DNA of 23,761 bases from Candidatus Zixiibacteriota bacterium (GTDB lineage: Bacteria > Zixibacteria > MSB-5A5 > SM23-73-2). Location of the stretch: NCBI GenBank assembly GCA_030615745.1, contig JAUWYR010000040.1, positions 1-23,761 of the forward strand, in the 5' to 3' direction. A program made the translations under genes and the position numbers. Position 1 is the stretch's first letter, and the number at the start of each line of letters is the position of its first letter. The notes below the pieces were generated by a model. It had not been told where the DNA came from. It saw nothing but the letters and a program-made list of their open reading frames with translations, and searched no databases. Shown here one piece after another: positions 1,905 through 4,500 of this stretch.

Positions 1905-2609
1905 TCACTTTTTATCCTCAATAAATTTCTTGGCTAAAATTTTTGCCTCCCTTAAAGGCTCAGGTAATCTGAACTTGGTGCAGCATCTTAAAATTATCTC
2001 AACTGAACTCTCACAGGAAATCCTGTGACCGGGTGTGACAAAGATCGGCTTGGTGTTATTTTTGCTTCTTAGGACTGCTCCAATTCTTTCACCCCCCTCT
2101 TCTCTAAACAAAAAAGAGCCTTTTTCCTTTTCAGTCTCTTTGAAGCTTTTCCACAAAGATCTTTTTGAACAGGCAATAGTTGGAATATCAAACAAAACCC
2201 CTAAATGAGATGCCAATCCCAATCCTTGCGGATGGATTATCCCCCTTCCAGGAAAGATCAAAAGGTCTGGTTTTTCAACCTCCTGTAAACAGGATATAAT
2301 AGAAGGTCCGGAAGAGAACGCAAAGAATCCAGATTTATACGGAAAAGTTGAAAAACCTTCTTTTCTTATCCTTTTTAAGACCTCAAACTTCGGAAATGAA
2401 AAGATGACAACTGCTGTAACTATTTTAGCATCTTTTTGAAAAATCATACCCACACCAGCGACCTTCTCTATTTTTTCAAAATCATCTTTTTTTTTAACAT
2501 ATCTTGAAAACTTTTTTTGAATCTTTATCGCCTCATCCAAACTTACATTCCAAGGGTGTTTGAAAACTAAATTCATTTTTTTACTCTGGGAAAAATTAAA
2601 AAAGTCCAT
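1905..2609 (-). CDS. Endonuclease V-like protein lacking catalytic acidic residues
   Basis: 234 residues, close to the usual length of endonuclease V (Nfi), which cuts DNA or RNA next to deoxyinosine or inosine. Family landmarks are clear: VAGVG at 50-54, FPYKSGFFAFSSGP at 89-102, GIIHPQGLGLASHLG at 123-137, TPGHRIS at 192-198 and RLPEP at 214-218. However, the three metal-binding acids are all replaced: VAGxD has Gly54, SFRE has Ser100, and the VDGHG motif reads FPGRG with Pro120. The conserved His126 and Lys149 remain. By family knowledge this should abolish metal-dependent cleavage, so it may be an inosine or nucleic-acid binding pseudoenzyme. It starts at ATG 2609, overlapping the radical SAM gene by 14 bases, which implies translational coupling. 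The fold assignment is firm; the function is open. Confidence 0.85.
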   Translation of the reverse strand: MDFFNFSQSKKMNLVFKHPWNVSLDEAIKIQKKFSRYVKKKDDFEKIEKVAGVGMIFQKDAKIVTAVVIFSFPKFEVLKRIRKEGFSTFPYKSGFFAFSSGPSIISCLQEVEKPDLLIFPGRGIIHPQGLGLASHLGVLFDIPTIACSKRSLWKSFKETEKEKGSFLFREEGGERIGAVLRSKNNTKPIFVTPGHRISCESSVEIILRCCTKFRLPEPLREAKILAKKFIEDKK

Positions 2610-3528
2610 CCAGCCTTAAAAGCCCTGCATCTTTTGCCATCTTTATAGCGGAAAGAAACTCGTCTTTTGTTATCCTTCTGTTTAAAATAGGAAAGTTTTT
2701 AGCTTTAAATTCAGGACGATACTGTTCCATCACATTAACATATGAGTTGGGTGAAAGCTCTTCAGATATAAATCGCATCGCATCTTTTGTCCCTGCCAAA
2801 TTTTCAGGCAAAACCAGATGCCTGATCAAAAGCCCCCTTTTTGCAATCCCTTTTTCATCAATAACCAGATCACCAACCTGGGTATGCATCTCCTTCAGAG
2901 CCTCTTTTACCACAAGAGGATAGTCCTCTGCATTGGAATACTTTTTTGCCACCTTAGGGTCAAAATATTTAAAGTCCGGCATATATATGTCAAAAATCCC
3001 TTTTAATATTCTTAAAGTCTCAACAGAATCATATCCTCCTGTATTATAAACCAATGGTAGGTCTAATCCCCCTTCTATTGCAAAGGATAAAGCCTTAAGT
3101 ATTTGAGGAATCATATGGGTTGGTGTTACAAAGTTGATATTATGACATCCCATTTTTTTTAGCTTGAGCATAATCAGGGCAAGGTCTTTTTCATCCACCT
3201 CTTCGCCATATCCCAGATGGCTTATATCGTAGTTCTGGCAGAAAAGACAACCTAAGTTACAATAAGTGAAAAATATCGTCCCGGAGCCAGAATAACCAAC
3301 CAAAGGGGATTCCTCACCAAAATGAGGACCAAATGAGGAGACCATAGTTTTTACCCCTGTTTTGCAATATCCCTTTTCTCCCTCCATTCGGTTAACTTTG
3401 CACTTTCTCGGACAAATATCACAAGATAAAAGCTTTTTGTACAAAAGCTCGATTTTTTCATTTAACTTTTTTTCTTTATATAATCTCAAATAAGCTGGTT
3501 CAAATAAGTCTACTTTTTTTTCTCCCAA
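2596..3528 (-). CDS. PflX-like radical SAM protein (COG1313 type)
   Basis: 310 residues. The radical SAM cluster motif is CNLGCLFC (Cys90, Cys94, Cys97), which binds a [4Fe-4S] cluster that cleaves S-adenosylmethionine. An N-terminal cysteine set, CDICPRKC plus GYC (Cys36, 39, 43, 55), precedes it and is typical of the PflX branch related to pyruvate formate-lyase activating enzymes. NTGGYDS and DIYMPDFKYFDP in the barrel also match this branch. The substrate is unknown; no glycyl-radical enzyme is encoded nearby, so it is unlikely to be a dedicated PFL activase. Start is TTG at 3528, chosen because AGGAG lies 8 bases upstream. It overlaps the DUF488 gene by 19 bases and the endonuclease V-like gene by 14. 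Confidence 0.85.
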   Translation of the reverse strand: MGEKKVDLFEPAYLRLYKEKKLNEKIELLYKKLLSCDICPRKCKVNRMEGEKGYCKTGVKTMVSSFGPHFGEESPLVGYSGSGTIFFTYCNLGCLFCQNYDISHLGYGEEVDEKDLALIMLKLKKMGCHNINFVTPTHMIPQILKALSFAIEGGLDLPLVYNTGGYDSVETLRILKGIFDIYMPDFKYFDPKVAKKYSNAEDYPLVVKEALKEMHTQVGDLVIDEKGIAKRGLLIRHLVLPENLAGTKDAMRFISEELSPNSYVNVMEQYRPEFKAKNFPILNRRITKDEFLSAIKMAKDAGLLRLDGLF

Positions 3529-3938
3529 ATTTTATTCTCCTCAAGGATATGCAAAACCCTGAATTCATCCTCATCCAATTTTTGCGCAACAAATCTTCTA
3601 TGGCATCTCCAGGGGAATTTTTCAGCGCACATAAATACGCAGATTGTTTTAGTGGAAAGTCCTTCTAATTTTTCAATCCCTTTTAAAAACTGCACAGAGT
3701 AAGTGTAATTTTTGTAACCCCCTTTTCTGAACCCACCTAAAAGATCACCTAAATAAAGGTAATCTATGTTTTTTTCTCTCAGGATTTTTTCTAAAGTATT
3801 TTTTTTGAAATGGTCTAATCTGCTGGTTGGAAATCTTCTTATATCCACAAGAGTCTTTATCCTAAATTTTTTTAACAGGGTTAAAAACTCCTCTTTTTGT
3901 CTTGTGGATGAACCTATGCTGTATATTATTTTATTCAA
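3510..3938 (-). CDS. DUF488 family protein
   Basis: 142 residues. Family features are YSIGSSTR at 6-13, LVDIRRFPTSR near 30-40 and CAEKFPWRCHRRFVA near 104-118; the paired cysteines and HR of CAExxxxxCHR are the hallmark. The family is small, cytosolic and without an established biochemical role; the cysteine/histidine motif suggests metal or nucleotide binding, but that is inference. Start is TTG at 3938, overlapping the archaemetzincin stop by 8 bases. It sits inside a run of overlapping genes, so it is almost certainly co-translated with its neighbours. Confidence 0.85.
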   Translation of the reverse strand: MNKIIYSIGSSTRQKEEFLTLLKKFRIKTLVDIRRFPTSRLDHFKKNTLEKILREKNIDYLYLGDLLGGFRKGGYKNYTYSVQFLKGIEKLEGLSTKTICVFMCAEKFPWRCHRRFVAQKLDEDEFRVLHILEENKIWEKKK

Positions 3939-4500
3939 TTAAAATCTGAGGCTCAACCTTCCTTTTACAGTTATCACACAATTTTTCAGATTTTCCATCG
4001 GTCTCCAAAAGGGAGTTTGTAAAATGCATCACACATCTGGGGTTAGGACAATGCTTCAATCCTAAAAGATGACCCAGCTGATGCACTGCCTCTTTTACCG
4101 TTCTGAATAAAAACAATTTTTCATCATCAAACATATCAAGGCTTTGTTGTTTCAGACGATGAAGTGAAAGCACTGCCACCTTTCCGTCGTAATCCGCATC
4201 ACCGTAAACAAAACCAGCACTTGGGATATAAAGATCCTCGTCCAAAACCCCTAATATTTTCTCACGGGAAGAGGATCTCAAAAGCTCCAATTTATTCAAA
4301 ATCACCGTGGAATAGTATTGCCCCCTTGTCCTGTTATATGCTTCCTTAGGAATTTTCATTCCCTGAAGGATGTCAACCCCGGTATTGAAAATGGAGACCA
4401 AATTTGTAGCCAAACGATTAACCACACCATAGTCCACCTCACCCAAAGGAACTAAAACTATCTTAAATCTTTTTCTGTATACCCTTTTGTGCACGGTCAT
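3931..4500 (-). CDS. amzA: Archaemetzincin-like protein with Glu-to-Gln change at the active site
   Basis: 189 residues, the usual length for peptidase family M54. The zinc site HQLGHLLGLKHC spans 140-151 and is followed by CX4C (Cys151, Cys156), CVM (156-158) and a distal CDNC (175-178), matching the archaemetzincin consensus. The three zinc-binding His (140, 144, 150) are kept. The general-base Glu of HExxH is Gln141; its codon at 4080-4078 is CAG, one base from GAG. Classical metzincin chemistry needs that Glu, so peptidase activity is doubtful although zinc should still bind. No signal peptide is visible, so it should be cytosolic. The ATG start overlaps the MFS stop by four bases (ATGA). 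Confidence 0.87.
   Translation of the reverse strand: MTVHKRVYRKRFKIVLVPLGEVDYGVVNRLATNLVSIFNTGVDILQGMKIPKEAYNRTRGQYYSTVILNKLELLRSSSREKILGVLDEDLYIPSAGFVYGDADYDGKVAVLSLHRLKQQSLDMFDDEKLFLFRTVKEAVHQLGHLLGLKHCPNPRCVMHFTNSLLETDGKSEKLCDNCKRKVEPQILIE

Follow-up and report, generated by a model that had tools for sequence, protein, structure and literature searches.

To our knowledge, endonuclease V (EndoV) is taken to be a nuclease in every organism that carries it. For the enzyme from Thermotoga maritima (TmEndoV), roles have been assigned to the wedge, to the hypoxanthine pocket, and to Lys139 as a phosphate clamp, and the E. coli enzyme needs no metal to bind nucleic acid (PMC4650699). Cleavage is abolished by replacement of the first Asp alone in mouse EndoV (PMC4842958) and by an Asp-to-Ala change at one metal ligand in trypanosome EndoV (PMC5561087). 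The RNase H-like superfamily includes members with incomplete catalytic centres, e.g., DUF99, which clusters apart from the EndoV family PF04493 (PMC3985635). Endonuclease Q (EndoQ), an enzyme with an unrelated PHP fold, incises DNA at hypoxanthine, uracil, xanthine, and abasic sites (PMC4357722). In P. furiosus, EndoV and EndoQ are both present and were judged to work independently (PMC4858679).

Identity and Predicted Structure

The window analyzed here is a stretch of 23,761 nucleotides from a Candidatus Zixiibacteriota bacterium. The first-pass annotation had placed an EndoV homologue at positions 1905–2609 without giving the strand, and both the position and the assignment were borne out. 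Frame 1 of the plus strand contains many stops across this interval; the open frame lies on the minus strand and comprises 234 codons (234 aa) from an ATG at 2609. Its product matches Pfam Endonuclease_5 (PF04493) over profile positions 2–197 of 198 (E = 3.3e-53, 180.7 bits, with a gathering score of 23.4 bits) and can be aligned with the Thermotoga EndoV structures (PDB 2w35, 2w36, and 3hd0) at an E-value of about 5e-43. PF04493 is the only Pfam family matched; the protein shares a superfamily with DUF99 and the other RNase H-like members whose centres are incomplete but falls within the EndoV family itself. The source genome (2.28 Mb, 98.6% complete) contains no second EndoV, active or otherwise.

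Structural modelling, which the first-pass annotation had proposed as a check, yielded the EndoV fold. The AlphaFold2 model, obtained from a shallow alignment (pLDDT 74.6, pTM 0.77), has a good core, with low confidence at wedge residues 91–94 and modest confidence around residues 121–130. Its best PDB matches in a Foldseek search were T. maritima EndoV entries, with TM values of 0.78–0.81 (approximately 0.79). In comparison with the EndoVs of T. maritima and E. coli (PF04493, COG1515), the window protein has the same fold, a whole-length sequence match, the wedge Tyr, the RLPEP region, most of the hypoxanthine pocket, and Lys139. However, it lacks the three metal ligands and Arg88, has a basic residue (Arg or Lys in its order) at position 112, belongs to an order in which His214 is often lost, and falls short of both NCBIfam cut-offs for EndoV equivalogs (195.6 versus 300 for NF041102 and 186.4 versus 230 for NF008629). 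No result depends on the E. coli Nfi sequence included in our alignments.

Loss of the Metal Centre

Active EndoV requires three metal ligands, D43, E89, and D110 (T. maritima numbering), and none of them is present in the window protein or in the nine-member clade to which it belongs. In the alignment with T. maritima EndoV, these positions are occupied by Gly54 (codon GGT, 2448–2450, minus strand), Ser100 (TCC, 2310–2312, minus strand; Val, Cys, Ala, or Ser in the clade), and Pro120 (CCT, 2250–2252, minus strand), as the first-pass annotation had read them. Accordingly, VAGVD of Thermotoga EndoV has become VAGVG, AFREG has become AFSSG, and VFDGQG has become IFPGRG. Conservation was assessed over the 30 alignment columns in which 25 canonical (D-E-D) relatives show at least 90% conservation. 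Six of the 30 are wholly lost in the order: columns 43, 88, 89, and 110, together with two beside Lys139, namely 136, where Gly has become Ala, and 138, where Ala has become Ser; the loss of Arg88 had escaped the first reading. If six of the 30 columns were lost at random, the probability of all three previously named metal positions being among them would be 2925/593775, i.e., about 0.005.

The canonical relatives have Asn, His, Gln, or Ala at position 112, two residues from D110; the order has Arg in eight members and Lys in one. The corresponding residue of the window protein is Arg122 (codon 2244–2246, minus strand), and we suggest that a cation at this position may stand in for the missing metal.

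Together with Arg/Lys122, His126 and Lys149 are conserved across the clade, which could speak for a nuclease that remains active through a rebuilt centre, either binding metal through other residues or cutting without metal through Arg122, His126, and Lys149. Such a centre would be evolvable in this phylum, since other EndoVs there tolerate the loss of D110. We nevertheless consider a rebuilt nuclease improbable. Alternative acids filling the metal site, the observation that the first-pass annotation had named as contrary to its reading, were sought in the alignment of the nine clade sequences, and no obvious one was seen: the only newly invariant acid, Asp42, is remote in sequence, 12 residues before Gly54. 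Arg88 is lost as well, and other EndoVs lose cleavage when a single ligand is mutated (PMC4842958, PMC5561087). Because the loss of one metal ligand is enough to kill the mouse and trypanosome enzymes, the window protein very probably does not cut as an EndoV does.

Conservation of the Substrate-Binding Residues

All nine members in the order keep the wedge Tyr80, Gly111, Gly113, Gly121, His116, and Lys139; in the window protein, the wedge Tyr, which separates the strands, is Tyr91 and the phosphate-holding Lys is Lys149. Leu142 and Pro82 are each kept in eight. The wedge motif of active EndoV and most of its pocket, which reads hypoxanthine via main-chain contacts, are therefore present in the clade, as far as its sequences tell. 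Leu85 is replaced by Phe in all nine. Part of the substrate grip appears to be relaxed, because Gly83 is kept in six members and is Asn in the other three, and His214 (the His of LAHIY in the alignment) is kept in only four.

Among the Foldseek matches of the model are the Thermotoga D110N and E89Q mutants, each solved with inosine DNA (PDB 6ozf and 6ozg); these single metal-site changes therefore do not prevent binding. The concentration of losses on the metal centre, with the wedge Tyr, the pocket glycines, His116, and Lys139 retained, fits a loss of cutting better than a loss of all nucleic-acid contact. We infer that the protein is about as likely as not still to read hypoxanthine in nucleic acid.

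Distribution and Selection

The survey covered 11 genomes of the source order and 121 others of the phylum. An EndoV gene is carried by nine of the 11, and each of the nine proteins has Gly at 43, Val, Cys, Ala, or Ser at 89, and Pro at 110. Among 87 EndoVs, these nine form a single clade, with a support of 100 when the three trait columns were masked and of 99 when eight active-site columns were masked, so that homologues with the same substitutions do group together, a point that the first-pass annotation had left to be checked. The phylum's remaining EndoVs include no Gly-x-Pro member, and scans of IMG/VR for such proteins returned only intact EndoVs. A genome-contig scan with a single query returned only a Helarchaeota EndoV (D-E-N); the Gly-x-Pro survey thus covers essentially one phylum. 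The open-access literature that we searched contained no description of a natural EndoV clade without all three ligands, which is not proof of absence. The simplest account is a single loss of the metal centre, in the common ancestor of the order, followed by retention of the gene.

The EndoV homologue is under purifying selection. Nei-Gojobori dN/dS values for four pairs of clade EndoVs are 0.15, 0.16, 0.18, and 0.09, in agreement with the earlier claim of selection rather than decay, and those of the neighboring radical-SAM gene are 0.06–0.12; the values are only approximate for pairs with dS above 1, and the closest pair (dS 0.34) gives 0.15. The frames are open in all nine genomes, and the clade has about 50 invariant columns, its members being 46–62% identical to the window protein. 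Sequencing error or decay as the cause of the substitutions was ruled out by the occurrence of Gly-x-Pro in nine genomes and by the dN/dS values.

The metal centre has also changed elsewhere in the phylum, which the first-pass annotation did not report: D110 is already absent from most of its EndoVs. In a group of 45, D43 (or Glu) is retained and so, with few exceptions, is E89; D110 is replaced by His, Ala, Pro, Ser, Asn, or another residue, and K139 by Arg. These proteins (e.g., L017, L028, and L052) resemble the window protein in the replacement of D110, but differ from it in keeping D43 (or Glu), nearly always E89, and Arg88, and in having Arg for Lys139. The EndoVs of family f4 (six genomes, L041–L046) keep D43 and have lost D110, and in five of the six, E89 is Leu, His, or Asp. 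The D110-less group is separate from the Gly-x-Pro clade in the tree; a tree joining the two is compatible with the data (p-AU 0.45) but not demanded by them, and the loss of D110 may have preceded the triple loss. The D110-less EndoVs with D43 and E89 (L017, L026, L052, L057, L059, L064, and about 40 other loci) appear from their residues to have a remodelled two-acid centre. The EndoV homologues at L048 (G068) and L055 (G084) are split over two frames or contain stops, as if decaying or mis-assembled.

Gene Neighborhood

A radical-SAM protein with an intact CxxxCxxC motif is encoded at 2596–3528 (minus strand), directly upstream of the EndoV homologue. When the ATG at 2609 is taken as the start, the two frames overlap by 14 nt. 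The first-pass annotation had cited an intact frame overlapping its neighbor as a sign of selection. The frame is indeed intact, and the overlap exists only with this start; as evidence of selection it is weak, because several relatives start at a Met aligned to Met12 of the window protein, the alternative start at 2576. The same cluster contains a DUF488 protein (3510–3938, minus strand) and a homologue of archaemetzincin (M54) with HQxxH instead of HExxH (3931–4500, minus strand), and both genes usually lie just upstream of the radical-SAM/EndoV pair in the order.

The radical-SAM gene is an order-specific paralogue that adjoins the EndoV homologue in all nine genomes. The linked copies share 63–78% identity across the order, versus 44–55% for most other copies, and CxxxCxxC is intact in the eight readable ones, the ninth being cut by a contig end. 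None of these cluster neighbors lies at any of the phylum's further EndoV loci that we retrieved, each with approximately 1.4 to 5 kb of adjoining sequence on either side. We are not aware of any function of the radical-SAM group; the protein matches the AmmeMemoRadiSam enzyme model weakly, and no literature on the group was found with the terms used.

So constant an association raises a reading without any nucleic-acid role, in which the EndoV homologue would be a structural or regulatory partner of the radical-SAM enzyme, perhaps also of the DUF488 and M54 proteins, and the kept glycines and Tyr would preserve the fold only. The exclusive pairing with this paralogue is consistent with such a role, as are new order-specific invariant residues, which include Ala146, Ser148, and Ser106. 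However, a mere scaffold would not readily account for the retention of the wedge Tyr, the pocket glycines, His116, and Lys139 in all nine members, nor for losses that centre on the metal site, and we consider this reading rather unlikely.

The M54 homologue is probably a non-proteolytic archaemetzincin-like protein, i.e., a second pseudo-enzyme of the cluster, because it has HQxxH and only three homologues in the phylum have HExxH. Across the 30-odd M54 homologues of the phylum, the other variants are HQ, HR, HL, and others. No matches to PADLOC anti-phage defence models were found for the EndoV homologue, the radical-SAM protein, or the M54 protein. The DUF488 protein matches PDC-M45B (E = 2e-27) and PDC-M19A (E = 6e-15), which may mean little for so broad a family.

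Endonuclease Q Homologue

Elsewhere in the source genome, and not beside the EndoV homologue, the minus strand encodes a homologue of EndoQ (L128:1438-2691; G000 contig C50:5405-6583), which the first-pass annotation, confined to the window, did not include. It is named a homologue rather than EndoQ because its score against NCBIfam TIGR00375 (196.5 bits) lies below the cut-off of 326.6. The second ORF beside it is presumably DUF72-like. TIGR00375 searches gave matches in eight of the 11 order genomes (all four of the best ones) versus two of the 121 others of the phylum. One of these two (G111) is a partial, distant fragment; the other (G026; 99% complete, one contig) is a full-length EndoQ with 62–65% identity to those of the order, in a genome without EndoV. 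The match between the order's proteins and P. furiosus EndoQ (PfuEndoQ; E = 3e-63) extends over the full length, and PHP motifs I–IV and the Glu and His are intact in eight full-length homologues. The C-terminal four-cysteine site reads His-Cys-Cys-Cys, with His aligned to the first Cys.

PfuEndoQ recognizes hypoxanthine in DNA (PMC4357722), and a homologue of it is present in the order of the window protein as a proposed replacement for EndoV, not as a relative. EndoQ has possibly replaced EndoV in its cutting role, with serious caveats: the correlation between EndoQ and EndoV loss represents one or two evolutionary events only, many phylum genomes without EndoV also lack EndoQ, and the two enzymes coexist in P. 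furiosus.

The same distribution might be taken to mean that the EndoV homologue is a decaying gene left behind after EndoQ took its role, given that EndoQ is present in the order, that EndoV is absent from G026, the sole outgroup genome with a full-length EndoQ, and that two order genomes have no EndoV match. Those two genomes, however, have a completeness of just 74% and 82%, and the linked radical-SAM copy is missing from them too; the nine open frames, the dN/dS values of 0.09–0.18, and the invariant columns described above make decay highly improbable.

Proposed Function and Significance

Retention of binding with loss of cutting is the reading that we propose as a whole, at about even confidence: the EndoV homologue would be a non-cutting binder of inosine/hypoxanthine, and incision at deoxyinosine (dI) would probably have been taken over by EndoQ. 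In such a mechanism, the protein would flip and hold the hypoxanthine (inosine) of DNA or RNA but leave the strand uncut; Arg/Lys122 might make up for the charge of the lost metal. Once bound, it would protect or mark the site or hand it to another enzyme, while deoxyinosine in DNA would be incised by the EndoQ homologue. The takeover of incision by EndoQ would have left EndoV free to lose its catalytic centre, as in the order, or to be lost, as in G026. A more elaborate, and unlikely, extension is a two-part deamination system, in which the dead EndoV is the hypoxanthine/inosine reader, the EndoQ acquired by the lineage cuts, and the radical-SAM enzyme, which is tied genetically to the reader, may act on the marked nucleic acid.

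The nine proteins constitute a pseudo-enzyme clade within a known family. If the clade is indeed fixed as non-cutting, it would be a natural separation-of-function EndoV, offering an inosine-binding reagent and a test of the non-cutting roles of EndoV, such as product holding and enzyme recruitment. Likewise, the apparent exchange of EndoV for EndoQ, if true, would offer a concrete example in which one deamination-repair nuclease has been displaced by another.
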